Source: Myxococcota bacterium
Lineage (GTDB): Bacteria; Myxococcota; B64-G9
Length of the DNA stretch: 64,000 nt
Assembly (NCBI GenBank): GCA_022710975.1
Contig: JAKLGA010000018.1
Coordinates: 62,001 to 126,000, forward strand
Reading direction: 5' to 3'
Shown in pieces: positions 23,409 to 64,000 of this stretch (its first letter is position 1; every line of letters starts with the position of its first letter). Below the pieces are notes generated by a model. It did not search any database. It was given only the letters and a program-made list of their open reading frames with translations, and had not been told where the DNA came from. The translations under genes were made by a program, and so were the position numbers.

Positions 23409-24929
23409 TCAGGGCGGGGCCACGTTGCAGCGCACCCGGAAGGTCCCGTCGGCCTCGGTGGTGGTCCAGGCCTCGTCGCAGCCGGTGTAGGAGCCCTCGG
23501 CCATGGGTTGCTCGTTGACCAGCAGCTTCACCTGCAACCCGGCCAGGCCCGCCCCCTGGGCGTCGGTCACCCTGCCGACGAAGGTCAGCATCTCGCCCAG
23601 GCCGAGCGAGATGTTCTTGGTCACGTCGGCGCTGACGATGGACTGGCTGGGCACCACGTACACCAGCGCGCCCTGCTGGAAGGCAGCGCCCGAGGGCACC
23701 ACGGTCAGCAGCCACTGCCCCGGCCGGAGCAGCACGCTGTAGATGCCGTCCGAGCCGGCCGAGGGCGAGAGCGCCAGGCGGGAGTCGGTCGACTTGACCA
23801 GCTCGAGCAGGCTGCCGGCCGCGCCCGTGCCGGCCGCGGTGCTCACCCGGCCCAGCAGGCTGAAGCCGTCCTTCAGCCGGGCGCTGCCCAGGTTGGTCGA
23901 GGCGCAGGCCTGGCCCGGGTGGCACACGTCCTCGTACAGCAGCTGCATGGGGAAGGCGCTGATGCCCGGCGGCAGGCCCAGGAGGTCGTAGGCCGGCCCC
24001 TCCTCGAGCGGCAGGCTGAACTCACCGTCCGCTGATGCCGGAGGCCCGTTCTGCACGCCCGCGTGGGCCAGCCGCCCCGCGTTCGCGCCGGTGCGGTACC
24101 AGGCCTGCACGGTCCAGCCGTTGACCGCCGGCACGCCGGTCTCGTAGACGGGTCCGCCCACCAGGGCGGCCGTGGCCGGGAGATCGATGTTCTGCGCGGC
24201 GTTGCCCTGCAGGTTGGCCACCCGCGCGTAGCCCACGCGGCCGTCGGCGGCCACCGCCTGGAGGTCGTACGGGCCGCCCGGCGGCAGGTACAGGCTGAAG
24301 CCGCTGCCGTCGGTCGTGGCCGTGGGCGGCACGCAGTCCGGCCGCGCGTGGAGCACGCTCACCCGCGCGCCGGTGAGCGGGCTGCCGCCGGCGCGCACCT
24401 GGCCGGTCAGGGTGACGCCGTTGACCAGCGTGGAGCTGGGCAGGCTGGGTCCCGCGTTGGCGGTGGGGTGCAGCCCGTCCAGGCACACGCTGGCGGCGCC
24501 GCCCGCGCCGGTCGGCCGCACGGCCAGGGTGAAGTTCAGCCGGGAGAAGTCGCGCTGGTCCTGGTCCTCGGGCGTGACCCCGTCGTCGCCGCCCTCGCCG
24601 TCGCCGTCATCCTGGGCGCCGTCGTCCCCGCCCTCGCCGTCCCCGTCGCCGCTCGAGCCGTCGGGCTCCTCCTGCGGCTCCTCGGTCACCAGGGTGCACA
24701 CGCCGTCCAGGCAGCGCTCCCCGATGAAGCACTGCAGCTCATTCGTGCAGGTGCGCACCCCGCTGTCCTCGGGGTACTGGCAGTTCCGGCCCACGCACAC
24801 CTGGCCCACGTCGCAGTCATCGTTGGTGACGCAGCCGACCTGCTGGCCTCCCCCGCCGTCGCAGGCCGAGAGCAAGAGCGCCAGCGCGAGCCCGGCGACC
24901 GTCCACATCCAGCGTCCGATGCGTTCCAT
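23409..24929 (-). CDS. Lipoprotein with Cys-rich head, acidic repeat linker and carboxypeptidase-regulatory-like domains
   Basis: A 506-aa protein with a ggaggt Shine-Dalgarno sequence and lipobox LLLSAC. After the lipid anchor come two Cys-rich motifs (CVTNDDCDVGQVCVGRNC; CTNELQCFIGERCLDGVC) of the kind frequent in myxobacterial secreted proteins. A Gly/Asp/Glu tract follows (about residues 90-118) that is an imperfect repeat of DGDGEGGDDG. The rest is beta-sandwich sequence with recurring LTGQVRAGGSPLTGARVSVL, LLGRVSTAAGTGAAGSLLEL and FVGRVTDAQGAGLAGLQVKL starts, typical of carboxypeptidase-regulatory/CNA-B-like domains in surface proteins. Inferred to be surface-exposed and structural or adhesive. 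Confidence 0.8.
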   Translation of the reverse strand: MERIGRWMWTVAGLALALLLSACDGGGGQQVGCVTNDDCDVGQVCVGRNCQYPEDSGVRTCTNELQCFIGERCLDGVCTLVTEEPQEEPDGSSGDGDGEGGDDGAQDDGDGEGGDDGVTPEDQDQRDFSRLNFTLAVRPTGAGGAASVCLDGLHPTANAGPSLPSSTLVNGVTLTGQVRAGGSPLTGARVSVLHARPDCVPPTATTDGSGFSLYLPPGGPYDLQAVAADGRVGYARVANLQGNAAQNIDLPATAALVGGPVYETGVPAVNGWTVQAWYRTGANAGRLAHAGVQNGPPASADGEFSLPLEEGPAYDLLGLPPGISAFPMQLLYEDVCHPGQACASTNLGSARLKDGFSLLGRVSTAAGTGAAGSLLELVKSTDSRLALSPSAGSDGIYSVLLRPGQWLLTVVPSGAAFQQGALVYVVPSQSIVSADVTKNISLGLGEMLTFVGRVTDAQGAGLAGLQVKLLVNEQPMAEGSYTGCDEAWTTTEADGTFRVRCNVAPP

Positions 24930-57735: not shown

Positions 57736-58602
57736 CTAGCCGCGGAAGAACCGCCCGGCCAGCAGCTCGAGCCGGGCCCGGGTCTCGGGAGGCACGTGCT
57801 CGAGCGACGAGATGATGGCGCCCTCGAGGGCGCGCTGGCAGCCGCACTTCCCGGCCGGCGGGAAGCGCGTGACCAGCCCCTGGATGGCCCGCTTGGCCAT
57901 GGCCACGTTCTGCTCGAAGACCTTCAACACCGCGTCCACGCTGACCTCGGCCTCGCTCGCGTGCCAGCAGTCGTAGTCGGTGGCGAGCGCCAGCGTCGCG
58001 TAGCACATCTCCGCCTCGCGGGCCAGCTTGGCCTCCGGGAGGTTGGTCATGCCGATCACCGCCGCGCCCAGCGAGCGGTAGAAGTTCGATTCGGCCCGGG
58101 TGGAGAACACCGGCCCCTCCATGCACACGTAGGTCCCGCCGCGGTGGTAGCGCCCCCCCAGCCCGTCCAGCACCCCGGCCACGGCCGCGGACATGACCGG
58201 GCAGATCGGCTCGCCGAAGGTCACGTGGGCCACCAGGCCATCGCCGAAGAACGAGGCCGGGCGGCCCTTGGTGCGGTCGAAGAACTGGTCCGGTAGCACC
58301 ATGTCGCCCGGGCGGATGTCCTCCTTCAGGCTGCCCACGGCCGAGAAGGACAGCAGGTGGCGCACCCCGAGCTGGCGGAAGCCGTGGATGTTGGCCCGGT
58401 AGTTGACCTCGGAGGGCGTGAGCCGGTGGCCGGCCCCGTGGCGCGACAGGAACACCACGCGCACGCCGCCGAGCACGCCGGTCTGGTAGGCGTCGGAGGG
58501 TCGGCCGAAGGGCGTCTCCAGCTCCACGGCCCGCCTGTCTGCGAGCCCCTCGATGCCGTACAGCCCGCTCCCGCCGATGATGCCCAGGATCTGCTCGCCC
58601 AC
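57736..58602 (-). CDS. mtnP: S-methyl-5'-thioadenosine phosphorylase family enzyme
   Basis: A 288-aa enzyme. GTG 58602 follows ggagaggtgg; extension to 58638 is not family-like. Motifs of the nucleoside phosphorylase (MTAP/PNP) family: GIIGGSGLYGIEGL (phosphate-binding Gly loop), SRHGAGHRLTPSEVNYRANI, SFSAVGSLKEDIRPGDMVLP, YVCMEGPVFSTRAES and IGMTNLPEAKLAREAEMCYA, then TDYDCWH. MEGP.FSTRAES and TN.PEA.LARE are standard for MTA phosphorylase, which splits methylthioadenosine into adenine and methylthioribose-1-phosphate. Specificity between MTA and inosine is not fully certain from sequence. It lies 72 nt after the kinase gene and has its own promoter. Confidence 0.9.
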   Translation of the reverse strand: MGEQILGIIGGSGLYGIEGLADRRAVELETPFGRPSDAYQTGVLGGVRVVFLSRHGAGHRLTPSEVNYRANIHGFRQLGVRHLLSFSAVGSLKEDIRPGDMVLPDQFFDRTKGRPASFFGDGLVAHVTFGEPICPVMSAAVAGVLDGLGGRYHRGGTYVCMEGPVFSTRAESNFYRSLGAAVIGMTNLPEAKLAREAEMCYATLALATDYDCWHASEAEVSVDAVLKVFEQNVAMAKRAIQGLVTRFPPAGKCGCQRALEGAIISSLEHVPPETRARLELLAGRFFRG

Positions 58603-58650
58603 GTGCCACCTCTCCCCGGCCCGCAGCGACCGCGCCACCGGGCCTTGCCA

Positions 58651-58678
58651 GCGTACTCCCGCGTGCGAACAGGGTCAA
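58651..58678 (-). promoter_or_regulatory. Sigma70-like promoter for the MTA phosphorylase gene
   Basis: Reverse strand TTGACC (58678-58673), 16-nt spacer, GTACGC (58656-58651). It overlaps the stop codon of the upstream kinase gene. Confidence 0.45.
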
Positions 58679-60147
58679 CGGCCGGGCGCTGGCGGGGCGG
58701 CGCAGGGGCCAGTCAGGACGACCTCCAGGCCGCCGTGGGCGGACGGCGCGAGCCCCAGCGCCCAGCCGTGCAGCCTGGCCAGCTCCTGGGTGATGCGCAG
58801 CCCGAGTCCGTGGCCCGACGGGCCGCGCCGGCGGGCCTGGTTGCCGTTCGCGAGATCGGTCCGCAGCTGCTCCAGCTCCTCCGCGCCCAGCCCGGGCCCG
58901 TCGTCGACCACGCGCAGCACGAAATGTCCCCGCGGTCCGTGCTCCAGGACCACGGCCACGTGGCCGTCGCGGCGGTTGTGGCGGATGGCGTTGTAGACCA
59001 CATTGCCCACGGCCTGCTCGAGCGCGGTCAGGTCGCCCCGCACGGGCACCGGCTCCGGGGGCAGCGCGTGCTCCAGCGCCACGCCCGCCTGCCGCGCGAT
59101 GGATTGGTGCCTGCCCATCACCCGTCCGAGCACCTCGCGCAGATCGAGATCCTCGAGCTGCAGGCCAGGCTGGCCGGCCTCGATCCTGGCGGCGGCCGAC
59201 AGGTTGCGCAGCAGCGAGGCGATGTAGTTCGTCTCGGCCATGGCCGCCGCGACTCGGGCACCGTCCACGGGCTCACCGGCGCGCAGCCGCTCCATGACCG
59301 AAGACAGCTCGCCTTGCAGGACCGTAAGCGGGATGGCCACGTCATGGGAGGTGTTCTCGACGAACTCGCGCAGCGCCGTCTCGCGCTGCTCGAGCGCCGA
59401 GAGATGGGCGCGCAGCTCGCGGCCAGCCTCCTCGAAGGTGCGTGACAGCTCGGCGATCTCGTCCCTGCCCTGCGTCGAGAGTTGCGCCGGCAGACGCGCG
59501 AGCGCCGTGCCCCGCACCTCGCGGGTCAGCCGCCGCACGCGCCGGACCACCGGCTCGGCCGCCAGCAGGAGCCCGGCCACGAACGAGCCGAGGATGATCA
59601 GCCACACGTACACCGGCGGGCCGAACAGGTGGCCTCCCTCGAAGGCTGGCGGCGTGGGGTGACCTACCAGCACGAGGGCGCAGGGGCCGTCGTCCCAGGG
59701 CATGCGCACCAGCAGGGGCTGGTGGTGCGGCTCCGCGCTGAGTCCGCCTGGCAAGATGAGCCCTGTGCCCGGGCGGAGGCCCCTGACCTGCTCCGCGTCC
59801 AGCCTGGGTGCGTCCGGGTCCCGGGAGGTGCCGTCGCTGCGGTAGACGTACCGCCTGGGCGGCGGGGGAGCGCGCCGGCCGCCCTCAGGCGGGGACCCTG
59901 GCGGAGCAGGAGGTGGCCCCACGGCGCAGTCCCCGGGCGGCTCATGGGCGGCACGCCCCGAGGAGAAGGTCACCGGGTCCGCCTCGCACGCCGTCCGGTC
60001 GCCCTGCTGCATCGCCTCGATCACGAACTGGACCCGGGCGTCCACCCAGGCGCGCTCCTCGAGGGCGCGGCCCAGCCAGGCCAGCGCCACGGCGATGGGC
60101 ATGGCCACCGCGACGGTCGTCAGCAGCAGGCGCAGGCGCAGTTTCAC
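58675..60147 (-). CDS. Membrane sensor histidine kinase partnered with the OmpR-type regulator
   Basis: A 490-aa kinase. GTG 60147 overlaps the regulator's stop (GTGA), typical of coupled two-component genes. TM1 (LLLTTVAVAMPIAVALAWLG), a Pro-rich periplasmic domain (about residues 35-185) with Asp/Glu and two Cys, TM2 (about 187-207, VWLIILGSFVAGLLLA) and HAMP follow. HisKA has the His in NTSHDVAIPLTVLQG. The ATPase domain keeps the N box (VGNVVYNAIRHN), G1 (DDGPGL) and G2 (GHGLGLRI); the F box is not obvious. Size and operon match QseC/PmrB-type sensors of metals or cationic compounds, consistent with the PmrA-type box upstream. Confidence 0.92.
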   Translation of the reverse strand: MKLRLRLLLTTVAVAMPIAVALAWLGRALEERAWVDARVQFVIEAMQQGDRTACEADPVTFSSGRAAHEPPGDCAVGPPPAPPGSPPEGGRRAPPPPRRYVYRSDGTSRDPDAPRLDAEQVRGLRPGTGLILPGGLSAEPHHQPLLVRMPWDDGPCALVLVGHPTPPAFEGGHLFGPPVYVWLIILGSFVAGLLLAAEPVVRRVRRLTREVRGTALARLPAQLSTQGRDEIAELSRTFEEAGRELRAHLSALEQRETALREFVENTSHDVAIPLTVLQGELSSVMERLRAGEPVDGARVAAAMAETNYIASLLRNLSAAARIEAGQPGLQLEDLDLREVLGRVMGRHQSIARQAGVALEHALPPEPVPVRGDLTALEQAVGNVVYNAIRHNRRDGHVAVVLEHGPRGHFVLRVVDDGPGLGAEELEQLRTDLANGNQARRRGPSGHGLGLRITQELARLHGWALGLAPSAHGGLEVVLTGPCAAPPAPGR

Positions 60148-60815
60148 CTGGGCGAGCCTCCACGCAGGCGGTAGCCGATGCCCCACACGGTCTCGATCAG
60201 CTCCTCCCCCTCCAGTTTCTTGCGCAGCCGCGAGACGTGCACGTCCAGGGTGCGCTCGGTGCCCTCCTTGTCGGGATCCAGCACGTTGTCGGCCAGCCAC
60301 TTGCGGGTGACGGCCTCTCCGGTCCGCTGCGCCAGCGCGGCCAGCAGATCGAACTCGACCCGGGTCAACTCCACGGGCTTGCCCCGCACGCTCGCCAGCC
60401 GGGCGCCGAGATCGAGCTCCAGGCCTCCGAAGCGCAGGGGCTCCCCGCGCTGCATGGCGGGCCGCCGCAGGCGCGCGCGCACCCGCTCGATCAGCTCCTC
60501 GGGCCAGAACGGCTTGGTCAGGTAGTCGTCCGCCCCCAACTTGAACGCGCGCACCTTGTCGGCGCTGCTGGTGCGTGCGCTGAGGACCAGCACCGGCACC
60601 TGAGAGTAGGTGCGCAGGTGCTTGAGGATGTCGAGCCCGTGCTTGCCCGGCAGCATCAGATCGAGCACCAGCAGCGAGAACCCCGGCAGGGCGCCGGGCA
60701 GGATCAGCTCCCCGGCGGTGCGCCAGAGGGTCTCGAAGCCGGCCTCGCGCAGGTGCTCGACGATCTGCGTCCCGAGGCGCTGGTCGTCTTCGATCACCAG
60801 GATCCTGTCCGTCAT
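60144..60815 (-). CDS. OmpR/PhoB-family response regulator (QseB/PmrA-like)
   Basis: A 223-aa regulator from ATG 60815. Receiver domain (1-115): acidic pair in VIEDDQRLG, phospho-acceptor Asp in LLVLDLMLPGKHG, Ser/Thr in VLSARTSSADK, Lys in YLTKPFWPEE. C-terminal winged helix (about 130-220): VELTRVEFDLLAALAQRTGE, TLDVHVSRLRKKL and VWGIGYRL. It probably activates its own operon: a tandem CTTAAG box lies just upstream. Targets elsewhere are unknown. In PmrA/QseB systems these include lipid A and surface genes; that is known for enterobacteria and only inferred here. Confidence 0.95.
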   Translation of the reverse strand: MTDRILVIEDDQRLGTQIVEHLREAGFETLWRTAGELILPGALPGFSLLVLDLMLPGKHGLDILKHLRTYSQVPVLVLSARTSSADKVRAFKLGADDYLTKPFWPEELIERVRARLRRPAMQRGEPLRFGGLELDLGARLASVRGKPVELTRVEFDLLAALAQRTGEAVTRKWLADNVLDPDKEGTERTLDVHVSRLRKKLEGEELIETVWGIGYRLRGGSPR

Positions 60816-60850
60816 GAGCCCACCTCGATAGGCGGCATGCCTGGCCGCCC

Positions 60851-60883
60851 ACGCTACTCGCGATCGCTTAAGGGCATCTTAAG
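60851..60883 (-). promoter_or_regulatory. PmrA-type tandem CTTAAG box and -10 for the OmpR-type regulator
   Basis: On the reverse strand, CTTAAG (60883-60878), 5 nt, CTTAAG (60872-60867), then 10 nt to TAGCGT (60856-60851). The half-sites are 11 bp apart, one helical turn, and the downstream one occupies the -35 region. This exactly fits the PmrA-box pattern (CTTAA-N6-CTTAA) and the usual geometry of an OmpR-family activator, suggesting autoregulation. CTTAAG is palindromic and rare in such GC-rich DNA. Confidence 0.65.
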
Positions 60884-61022
60884 GAGGGGGTGGTAGGCAT
60901 GGCAAGGTGCCAGCTCGTGCCGGCGCGATGACCGATGATGCACGTGCGATGAGGTCCAGGTTGCCATGCGAGTGCTCCAGGCCCAGGGCTCATCCTGCGT
61001 CCCCGAACCAAAGGGAGTTACC

Positions 61023-61967
61023 ATGCCCAAGGCCCCCTGGCAGTGCCTCCTGGTCGGCCTGTTCGCCGTGCAGGCCTGCGCCTGCGGATCTTCCGCCGGC
61101 GGTCCGGATGGCTCCGACGAGGCGATCGGCAACTTCCAGGTCACGCTGATGCAGCCGGACCTCTATCCCCCCGGCTACACCACGGTGGTCGGCAAGATCT
61201 TCGATGGACCGACGCCCTCGGCGCTGGTCTGGGAGGAGACCGTCGCGGACGGACCCTGCCAGCTCCTCACCCCGAGGGTGCCCTACTGCGAGGAGGACTG
61301 CGGCGGCGACGCCCTGTGCGTGGAGGACGGCCAGTGCCGGGCCTACCCCGCGGTCCAGGAGGTGGGCGAGGTGCTGGTCCAGGGGATCCACACCAGCTCC
61401 GGGGCGACCCAGTTCAGCATGCAGCCCATCGCCGGGAACTACCAGCCGGCTGAGGAGCTGCCCTACCCCCCGTTCGCCGAGGGGGACGTGATCACCTTCG
61501 CGGCCGCGGGCAGCGCCTTCGCCCCGGCCTTCACCCTCGAGGCCGTCGGCATCGCTCCCTTCTCCCTGGCGAGCGCGGACATCGTCCTCGAGGACGGCCA
61601 GGACGTGACCCTGACCTGGACCCCGCCGGCCGCGGCCGGGAGCTCTCGCATCGCGCTCAAGCTCGACATCAGCCACCACGGCGGCACCAAGGGCAAGATC
61701 GTGTGCGACGCCCCGGACAGCGGGTCGCTCACCCTCCCGGCGGCCATGCTGAGCCAGCTCCTGGACCTCGGCGTGGCCGGCTTCCCCACCATCGTGGTCA
61801 CCCGCAAGTCGACCGGCTCTGCGACCGTCCCCGCGGGTGTCGTCACCCTGGAGTTGCTCTCCGGGGTGGTGCAGGCGGTGTCCATCCCCGGGCTCGTCTC
61901 GTGCAACGACGACGAAGACTGCCCCGTGGAGCAGACTTGCCAGGACGACCTGTCCTGCGGCCCATAG
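61023..61967 (+). CDS. Secreted lipoprotein, function unknown
   Basis: A 314-aa protein from ATG 61023 (aaagggag 8 nt upstream), with lipobox VQACAC. The mature part begins with GNFQVTLMQPDLYPPGYTTV, then a Cys-rich loop (CQLLTPRVPYCEEDCGGDAL...DGQC), then beta-rich sequence (LEDGQDVTLTWTPPAAAGSS, IALKLDISHHGGTKGKIVCD) and a C-terminal CNDDEDCPVEQTCQDDLSC motif. The last resembles the Cys motifs in the 24-kb lipoprotein and the next gene. Related proteins appear to be common in myxobacteria, but no function is known to me. It is the first of a three-gene group on the + strand, divergent from the two-component operon. Confidence 0.78.
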   Translation: MPKAPWQCLLVGLFAVQACACGSSAGGPDGSDEAIGNFQVTLMQPDLYPPGYTTVVGKIFDGPTPSALVWEETVADGPCQLLTPRVPYCEEDCGGDALCVEDGQCRAYPAVQEVGEVLVQGIHTSSGATQFSMQPIAGNYQPAEELPYPPFAEGDVITFAAAGSAFAPAFTLEAVGIAPFSLASADIVLEDGQDVTLTWTPPAAAGSSRIALKLDISHHGGTKGKIVCDAPDSGSLTLPAAMLSQLLDLGVAGFPTIVVTRKSTGSATVPAGVVTLELLSGVVQAVSIPGLVSCNDDEDCPVEQTCQDDLSCGP

Positions 61968-61986: not shown

Positions 61987-63504
61987 ATGCGCAAGGGACA
62001 CGGTTCGCTGCTGGTGGCCGCGGTGGTCTGCGCCCTGCCGCTGGCGCAGTGCGAGTCCAACTCGGGCACCTGCACCCCGCATGAGATGACCTACTGCATG
62101 GCCGGTTCGCTGTACTGGATGAACAGCTGCGGCAGCCTGGAGGAGCTCCTCCAGACCTGCCCGCTGGGCTGCAACGCGCTGGAGACCGGCTGCCAGGACG
62201 GCGGCGCCTGCACCACGGCGGCGGACTGCAGCCTGGGCCAGGTGTGCCACGCCAGCGCGTGCTGCACGCCCGCCTGCCAGGACCGCTGCTGCGGCGACGA
62301 CGCCTGCGGCGGCGCCTGCCCCGACACCTGCGCCGGCGGCCAGGTCTGCGGCGGGTCCTGCACCTGCCAGACGGTGTGTGACCCGCACGCCGCCCGGGTG
62401 TGCGCGGCCGGGGTCCTGTTCTGGCAGGACTCCTGCGGCAACCGTGAGGAGGACATCGAGAGTTGCCTGCTGGGCTGCAACCCCGCCGGCACGGCCTGCC
62501 TCGAGCAGACCGGCTGCTCCTCCTCGGACCAGTGCAGCACCGGTCAGGTGTGCTTCGATGGCTCCTGCTGTGCGCCGGCGTGTGAGGGCCGCTGCTGCGA
62601 CGACGACGGGTGCGGCGGCACCTGCCCGGACACGTGCGCCGCCAGCGGCCTGGTGTGCAACCTGCTGTGCCTGTGCGAGGCCGGCTGCCAGGCGGAGACC
62701 TGCGGCACGCTCGGCCGGGAGTGCGGCGCGGCCGACGACGGCTGCGGCCAGACCCTCCAGTGTGGCGCCTGCGACGCGGATGAGACCTGCGACGCGAACG
62801 GCCGGTGCCAGGCGACGCTGGCGCGCTTCAGCTTCTTCGTCACCAGCCTGCGGGCCTTGCGGGACCTCTCGGACAGCCAGGACGGTTTCGGCGGCAACCT
62901 CACCTATGGCCACACCGGCGATAGGGCGGGCCTGGACGGCGCGGACGCCCTGTGCGCGGCGATCGCCGAGCGCAGCATGACCGGCGCCTCGACCAAGCGC
63001 TGGCGCGCCTTCCTGTGCACCAGCTACGAGGACGCCATCGACCGCGTCGGCGAGGGTCCCTGGTATGACCGGAGAGGCCGGGTCCTGGCCCCCAGCAAGG
63101 CGGATCTCCTGAACTCGCGCCCGCTGAACGGCAGCGCCATCATCCGGAACGACTTTCCCAACGAGGACGGCGTGCTCAACCACGATCCCGATCTCACCGG
63201 AGACGTCGACAACCACGACATGCTGACCGGCTGCGACGAGGACGGGCGGCTGTACTCCGGCAGCGCGGCCTGCCTGGACTGGACCAGCGCCGGCAGCCAG
63301 GTGGGAAGGCCGAGAGTGGGCCACTCCTGGCCGAGGACCGGCGGGCGCGAACCGGGAGACCAGGACCCAGCCCACTGGATATCCGCCATGGAAGCCAATG
63401 GTTGCGCTCCGGGCGTCAACCTGACGGAGTCCATGGGGAACGAGCCCACCGTGGGCGCGTCGGGCGGCTACGGCGGCTTCTACTGCTTCTCGCTCGATCC
63501 CTGA
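61987..63504 (+). CDS. Cys-rich secreted protein with duplicated modules and a DUF1554/endostatin-like domain
   Basis: A 505-aa protein from ATG 61987 (gaggaggag upstream), with signal peptide/lipobox LPLAQC. Residues about 28-225 are two copies of a roughly 100-residue Cys module, each with a C...CxxGxLxWxxSCG...LLGCN segment followed by GQVC...CCxPAC..RCC.DD.CGG.CPDTC. A further Cys segment runs to about 280. The C-terminal domain (about 283-505) begins FSFFVTSLRALRDL and includes AGLDGADALCAAIAERS, RWRAFLCTS and many aromatic/Asp turns, like DUF1554/endostatin-type lectin-fold domains found in secreted bacterial proteins. Inferred to be a disulfide-rich surface or spore/matrix protein. It lies 19 nt after the preceding lipoprotein. 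Confidence 0.8.
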   Translation: MRKGHGSLLVAAVVCALPLAQCESNSGTCTPHEMTYCMAGSLYWMNSCGSLEELLQTCPLGCNALETGCQDGGACTTAADCSLGQVCHASACCTPACQDRCCGDDACGGACPDTCAGGQVCGGSCTCQTVCDPHAARVCAAGVLFWQDSCGNREEDIESCLLGCNPAGTACLEQTGCSSSDQCSTGQVCFDGSCCAPACEGRCCDDDGCGGTCPDTCAASGLVCNLLCLCEAGCQAETCGTLGRECGAADDGCGQTLQCGACDADETCDANGRCQATLARFSFFVTSLRALRDLSDSQDGFGGNLTYGHTGDRAGLDGADALCAAIAERSMTGASTKRWRAFLCTSYEDAIDRVGEGPWYDRRGRVLAPSKADLLNSRPLNGSAIIRNDFPNEDGVLNHDPDLTGDVDNHDMLTGCDEDGRLYSGSAACLDWTSAGSQVGRPRVGHSWPRTGGREPGDQDPAHWISAMEANGCAPGVNLTESMGNEPTVGASGGYGGFYCFSLDP

Positions 63505-63519
63505 CGAGAGGACCCGGCC

Positions 63520-64000
63520 ATGCCCCGCAGGCTGCACTGGACTGCGTTCCTGGTCACGGGTGCGCTCTGCGCCCTGGTCCCGGGCTGCTCCGAGGCAGGC
63601 GGTGGAGAGCCGATCGCCTGGGAGTGCCAGCTGCCGGCCGGCGACCCGCCGGACTACCTCTCCGCGCTCGGCTGCGAGGACGACTTCCTGGCCCTGGCCT
63701 CGATCCCGGCGGACTCCAGCATCCCCGGCGCGCGCTCGGTGAAGACGGTCATCGACCGGGAAGACGGTGACGCGCTCTACTTCCAGAACAGCCAACGCTA
63801 CGCCATCCACTGGGAGTTCGCCCGCGCCGTCCTGTCGGGCGGCAGCCTGCCCTACGTGCCCGAGCTCGGTGAGTTCAACACCTCCGAGTACTACAAGCCC
63901 ACGCGCCGGTTCCTGCTGGGCGCGGTCACCCACTACGAGGGCGCCGGGGCCTGGGTGTACGAGATCGCCCCCTACGACACCGCGGAGGCGGATTTCATCG
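63520..64000 (+). CDS. Secreted lipoprotein, unknown (3' truncated by window edge)
   Basis: The frame runs from ATG 63520 to the edge of the window with no stop (160 codons). It has lipobox LVPGC after a hydrophobic signal segment, then WECQLPAGDPPDYLSALGCE, LYFQNSQRYAIHWEFARAVL and RRFLLGAVTHYEGAGAWVYE. The pattern suggests a globular extracytoplasmic domain; I do not recognise its family. It follows the Cys-rich gene by 15 nt and probably belongs to the same transcription unit. The C-terminal half lies outside the window. Confidence 0.72.
   Translation, partial: MPRRLHWTAFLVTGALCALVPGCSEAGGGEPIAWECQLPAGDPPDYLSALGCEDDFLALASIPADSSIPGARSVKTVIDREDGDALYFQNSQRYAIHWEFARAVLSGGSLPYVPELGEFNTSEYYKPTRRFLLGAVTHYEGAGAWVYEIAPYDTAEADFI

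Follow-up and report, generated by a model that had tools for sequence, protein, structure and literature searches.

A paired CTTAAG box beside an OmpR/PhoB-type two-component system in a Myxococcota genome is a probable operator that may also serve a divergent lipoprotein cluster

What does a short, paired CTTAAG element do between a two-component system and a divergently transcribed gene cluster, and which regulator reads it? The question arises in a 64,000-nucleotide stretch of a Myxococcota genome (hereafter the window). On the minus strand lie a response regulator gene (RR, 60144..60815) and a sensor histidine kinase gene (HK, 58675..60147). Pfam recognised in the RR the receiver domain (Response_reg, 71 bits against a cut-off of 30.2) and the C-terminal winged-helix domain (Trans_reg_C, 82.9 bits against 26.2) expected of the OmpR/PhoB family; the HK matched HATPase_c (64.9 bits), and its HisKA score of 22.6 bits was below the cut-off of 26.9. 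The divergent cluster, on the plus strand, begins with LP1 (61023..61967), which we read as a lipoprotein from its signal-like N terminus, and continues with LP2 (61987..63504) and the start of LP3 (63520..64000), a 673-amino-acid open reading frame (ORF) with a PPDK_N domain. Neither LP1 nor LP2 had a Pfam or NCBIfam match. The cluster extends past the window in the order LP1, LP2, LP3, CotH, porin-like ORF, second CotH, VTC and DUF4956 (L116, G000:C10:118001-138000); the porin-like ORF is without a Pfam match, and its label, like all gene labels beyond Pfam hits, is our own. Counting this genome, LP1 homologues were present in 28 of 195 genomes of the phylum. Downstream of the HK is an ORF (57736-58638, minus strand) that, by the look of its sequence, we take to encode S-methyl-5'-thioadenosine phosphorylase.

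The candidate operator, CTTAAG-GGCAT-CTTAAG (CTTAAGGGCATCTTAAG, 60867..60883, no strand assigned), consists of two palindromic half-sites (60867-60872 and 60878-60883) whose starts are 11 bp apart. A sequence-only reading had described this pair as lying 10 nt from a TAGCGT in the direction of the regulator, exactly as the letters read. It also expected CTTAAG to be very rare in this DNA, but the single hexamer is only mildly so: the window has two copies where 0.88 would be expected, a number matched in 20 of 100 shuffles, whereas about 1e-3 copies of the spaced pair are expected genome-wide (our arithmetic, from the squared window shuffle rate). The improbable element is the spaced pair, not the hexamer. 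The genome scan that the same reading had proposed found a single exact copy in 7,132,103 bases (7.13 Mb), none with one mismatch and six with two mismatches, making seven places at up to two mismatches. The backwards control pattern gave no exact occurrence in the same scan and 46 places at up to two mismatches against these 7, so the pattern is not enriched by count in this genome; in the other genomes scanned, too, box-type sites were not more numerous than the control. Within the window itself, two matches at up to two mismatches were observed against 0.09 expected. The second of them, CTGAAGCCGTCCTTCAG at 23860-23876 (L002), had no cluster homologue beside it by comparison. Nor did the other five two-mismatch sites in the genome (L198-L201, L004) adjoin cluster-protein matches, with the exception of L199, where an RR-like stretch (34.7%) lies 1.7 kb from the site.

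We compared the region upstream of the RR with that of its relatives. A contig search yielded 133 stretches encoding relatives, of which 80 loci were kept, their RR relatives being 54-74% identical. Seven more and the window brought the total to 88, from which we took 54 representatives sharing less than 85% RR identity and scanned up to 250 nt upstream with spacers of 0-15. A CTTAAG-like pair with a spacer of 5 lay upstream of the RR in 11, 22 and 38 of the 54 representatives at up to 1, 2 and 3 mismatches, respectively, whereas any other spacer gave at most 0, 2 and 11. Shuffle means for spacer 5 were 0, 0.02 and 1.09, in a control that took L008, L011 and L013 on the wrong strand (the observed counts use the right strand). 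No box within three mismatches was found upstream of the RR in 16 of the 54 representatives; among these, L007, L009 and L038, for instance, have the box in front of an upstream gene of the same operon. RR orthologues with the conserved spacer and −10 distance came from records titled Myxococcota, Planctomycetota and Acidobacteriota groups. The exact variant CTTACG-N5-CTTACG occurred once in each of four Polyangium genomes and one Myxococcaceae metagenome-assembled genome, and all five copies were at the RR box. This comparison supports the reading that the box is very probably the operator of the adjacent RR.

The spacing toward the RR start is conserved as well. Beyond the box, the minus strand reads CGATCGCGAG (10 nt, 60866-60857) and then the −10-like TAGCGT (60856-60851), ahead of the RR start at 60815. 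Of the 22 representatives with boxes at up to two mismatches, 14 have NANNNT at offset 10 on the RR side and 8 have it there on the opposite side; at the remaining offsets between 0 and 30 the count is never more than 3. The stricter TANNNT occurred at offset 10 in 7 toward the RR and 7 on the other side, with at most 1 at any remaining offset. By direct reading, the window has no TTGACA-like hexamer at the usual spacing. Because a half-site sits where a −35 would be, with a set distance of 10 nt to the −10 and no TTGACA-like hexamer, these promoters look activator-dependent. The RR operon has a class-II, autoregulated layout, with the predicted operator in the −35 place. The activation geometry claimed by the sequence-only reading thus holds for an OmpR/PhoB-type regulator, with both the 5-bp spacer (22 of 54) and the 10-nt distance (14 of 22) conserved, and it agrees with PmrA activation from the −35 place, which PMC4660055 models on PhoB. 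That the RR is instead a repressor blocking one or both promoters seems improbable to us. Repression by some OmpR-family regulators has precedent, as CopR represses at pcoA2 while activating cusRS (PMC11195947), but the half-site at a fixed 10 nt and the missing −35 hexamer argue for activation.

The paired hexamers had been called a PmrA-type box, with PmrA/QseB as the model. For PmrA (BasR) of Salmonella and Klebsiella, the likeness is clear: the published box, CTTAAG-N5-XTTAAT (PMC3973317), also has two CTTAAG-like hexamers and a 5-bp spacer, and PmrA binds its hexamers head to tail with the −35 at a half-site (PMC3973317, PMC4660055). The published second half-site is XTTAAT, whereas that in the window ends in G, making both half-sites palindromic. 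The regulator itself does not fit. We rejected both PmrA (NCBIfam model 144 bits, cut-off 330) and QseB (135.8 bits, cut-off 345) as its identity. The MtrA, BaeR and PhoB models outscored these two, yet remained below their own cut-offs (for PhoB, 155.9 against 296.2 bits); the heavy-metal regulator model reached 152.8 bits against a cut-off of 279.2, and all scores were below cut-off among the 25 NCBIfam models listed. The pho box half-site sequence also differs from CTTAAG. Alignment of the RR with BasR gave 85 identities over 228 columns, and its recognition helix, RTLDVHVSRLRKKL, differs from that of E. coli BasR/PmrA, NTLEVHIHNLRDKV, departing from it at R188, D191, S195 and R196. These helix positions are well conserved among the RR representatives (R188, D191 and H193 in 54/54, S195 in 53/54 and R196 in 51/54). 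No lipid-A modification genes were recognised at the sites read, where some flanking genes are unassigned. Since the genes recognised there were lipoprotein-cluster, dioxygenase and regulator genes, a polymyxin or metal response is without support. The box resembles a PmrA box but, judged by the model scores and helix residues of the regulator, belongs to no PmrA system, and a PmrA-like box need not imply a PmrA-like regulator.

Does the box also act on the cluster behind it, as the sequence-only reading had proposed? On the plus strand, 10 nt from the box, lies an imperfect −10-like TAGGCA (60894..60899), the final base of which is A, not T. This imperfection favours a reading in which the box serves RR/HK autoregulation alone and LP1 is a mere neighbour with its own promoter. 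Against that reading stands L036, which shares the window's layout (LP1, LP2 and LP3 are 51.6, 59.5 and 53.8% identical where they align) and in which the LP1 side carries TACATT, 10 nt from the box, in place of TAGGCA.

The position of the box follows the head of the operon. Where a dioxygenase gene precedes the RR, a box at up to two mismatches lay before the dioxygenase gene in all 12 loci compared (L007, L009, L047, L051-L053, L055-L057 and L060-L062), and in the Polyangium loci L063 and L065-L067 the dioxygenase gene and the RR diverge across the box. No dioxygenase homologue was found in the window's own genome, by a search that carries low weight when empty. LP2 homologues adjoin LP1 in L036, L038, L043, L054 and L072. 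L054 and L072 have the order LP2-LP1-RR-HK and a divergent VTC-DUF4956, and their box precedes LP2; the box of L038 and L043 separates LP2 from VTC-DUF4956, and that of L050 separates the RR from a divergently oriented DUF4956 gene. We scored positions 2 (A) and 6 (T) of the −10 in eight divergent boxes flanked on both sides by a cluster or dioxygenase gene. Six of the eight (L036, L050, L054, L072, L038 and L043, the last four being related) carry both bases at offset 10 on both sides. The window's box has A and T on the RR side and A alone on the LP1 side, and the −10 of L063 is imperfect toward both sides. As CTTAAG is palindromic, one box could be used toward either side; this property and the two-sided −10 elements in six of eight divergent boxes make the divergent cluster a probable target.

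Other loci have two boxes rather than one. Where the half-sites are non-palindromic (of the CTTCAG-N5-CGCAAG type), there are often two boxes pointing apart, in 13 of 54 representatives; in 12 of 54, a class that may overlap with the first, one box matches both directions. Both classes were counted at up to one mismatch to an IUPAC form picked after the sites had been seen, and each numbered 0 in 50 shuffle sets. These two arrangements suggest that divergent control may be achieved either by a symmetrical half-site or by a second box. In further lineages (L077, L084, L105, L111, L079, L080, L090, L098 and L113) the RR-divergent gene presumably encodes a different exported protein: lipoprotein-like ORFs, EF-hand-like or cytochrome-c-peroxidase-like.

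Sites unlinked to the RR provide a separate view of the targets. In the 14 Myxococcaceae-like genomes (family f8) where LP1 and the RR occur together, 42 sites at up to one mismatch were listed. By our sorting, RR, dioxygenase or LP1/LP2 genes account for 27 of the 42: 10 at the RR operon (two of these headed by a dioxygenase gene), 5 at the dioxygenase gene, 4 at a dioxygenase paralogue and 8 at LP1/LP2. The remainder comprise 10 of a separate LysR/ADH-type family and 5 others. In this sorting, the G121 and G154 sites were read as those of G066 and G064, with identical coordinates; two G146 sites (RR and LP2) were assigned via identical boxes in G145/G147; the G147 LP2 stretch starts just past its box; and two of the ten LysR/ADH-type sites (L187 and L285) were assigned by flank alone. 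Each of these 14 genomes had at least one site, and none of the f8 genomes of the same set without the RR did (0/5; G127, G128, G130, G200 and G202). This contrast fails outside f8: G031 has the RR and lacks any one-mismatch site, and among genomes without the RR, G003, G028 and G042 had none, G005, G016 and G023 one each, and G034 eleven.

LP1 itself was compared in the 27 genomes besides the window's own. Of the 15 that have the RR, 9 carry a box at up to two mismatches in the 500 nt upstream of LP1, against 0 of the 12 that lack the RR (Fisher p 0.0011, tree-uncorrected); by genus, the counts were 4/5 versus 0/9 (p ~0.005, our arithmetic, also tree-uncorrected). The six RR-bearing genomes that had no box within 500 nt of LP1 include L217, with a box 1.4 kb upstream, and L216, with a box before the preceding LP2, both counted as box-less. 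The LP clusters of L174 and L175 had no adjacent CTTAAG-N5-CTTAAG or CTTACG-N5-CTTACG within two mismatches. Box-less LP clusters such as these are consistent with autoregulation alone, whereas unlinked boxes before LP1 or LP2 homologues, and the restriction of LP1 boxes to RR-bearing genomes, argue against it, and we regard autoregulation alone as unlikely here, although it is the strongest of the alternatives. The earlier proposal that the divergent cluster is a target accordingly stands as probable, despite the imperfect −10 on the LP1 side of the window's box. DUF4956/VTC as targets by themselves were rejected: fetched DUF4956 stretches without LP genes carry no box at up to two mismatches. 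DUF4956 was present in 21 of 25 genomes, and target sets vary among lineages.

The pattern alone is not specific, because the separate family makes up 10 of the 42 Myxococcaceae sites. These are palindromic GTTAAGCACCGCTTAAG-like sites with the flank AGCCTATTG, in which A(G/A)CCTATTG is shared, and most adjoin what we take to be LysR-like and alcohol-dehydrogenase-like genes (L267, L270, L275, L281, L284, L289 and L300). The GTTAAGCACCGCTTAAG-like family looks like the operator of another regulator. Its existence is the point in favour of reading the window's box as the site of a different protein (a LysR-type regulator, for instance) or as a chance palindrome, although the conservation of spacer and −10 distance at RR orthologues across the Myxococcota, Planctomycetota and Acidobacteriota records makes this highly improbable.

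Taken as a whole, it is likely in our view that the box is the operator of the RR/HK pair and probably also activates the divergent cluster. Triggered by some envelope signal, the HK would pass phosphate to the RR, a dimer of which would bind both CTTAAG half-sites in place of the missing −35. The bound RR would recruit RNA polymerase to the −10 element 10 nt away, and RR/HK expression would rise by positive autoregulation; read the opposite way, the same box would probably activate the LP1-LP2-LP3-CotH-VTC-DUF4956 cluster. As only 37 bp separate the two −10 elements, a distance that a single polymerase would cover, two polymerases could hardly reside there together, and the RR/HK and LP1 promoters would be mutually exclusive. 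We tentatively propose, at somewhat less than even confidence, a two-way class-II operator, in which a single RR-dimer site launches either the RR/HK operon or the divergent cluster, not both, and in which feedback and output compete.

Several known systems share parts of this arrangement. Similar to the box proposed here, one intergenic OmpR-family site lets CusR control both the operon that encodes it and a target operon facing the other way, between cusRS and pcoA2 in Pseudomonas or cusCFBA in E. coli (PMC11195947, PMC8249747). The CusR site is a single inverted repeat, whereas the window has two palindromic hexamers in tandem and, toward either side, 10 nt to the −10. Another metal regulator that has sites in divergent regions is AgrR of Cupriavidus (PMC7380067). 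PhoB, the docking model for PmrA, is an activator of the OmpR/PhoB family that has tandem half-sites in the −35 place (PMC4660055). Bidirectional promoters of E. coli likewise drive divergent transcription from one short stretch, and polymerases compete at them once activated, a precedent for the competition proposed here; in those promoters the −10 is the symmetrical element that both directions share, whereas in the window it would be the putative activator box, with two separate −10 elements (PMC12825309). We did not find the present system described in the open-licence literature searched. For the two-component system, the comparison supplies a candidate operator, a precise promoter geometry and a small set of candidate targets, and the system is tied to CotH, VTC and DUF4956 and to lipoprotein/dioxygenase genes. 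If the box does work in both directions, it would be a compact natural system for testing how a single activator site splits its output between divergent promoters.

Some further features of these loci were seen. The window's own genome contains a second LP1-like stretch (G000:C12:149169-149690, L230; 37% identity); the 3.5 kb read there held no box at up to two mismatches. One Hyalangium genome has a box (position 3424 of L188, G064:C8:5000-12000) ahead of a different RR/HK pair, the RR of which is 39% identical, and a dioxygenase gene is nearby. In the HK, two periplasmic cysteines, C54 (CE..P) and C156 (W..GPC), flank a proline-rich stretch and are conserved in 39/40 and 36/40 adjacent HK homologues, respectively, the window's own HK included; they possibly form a disulfide or a metal site.
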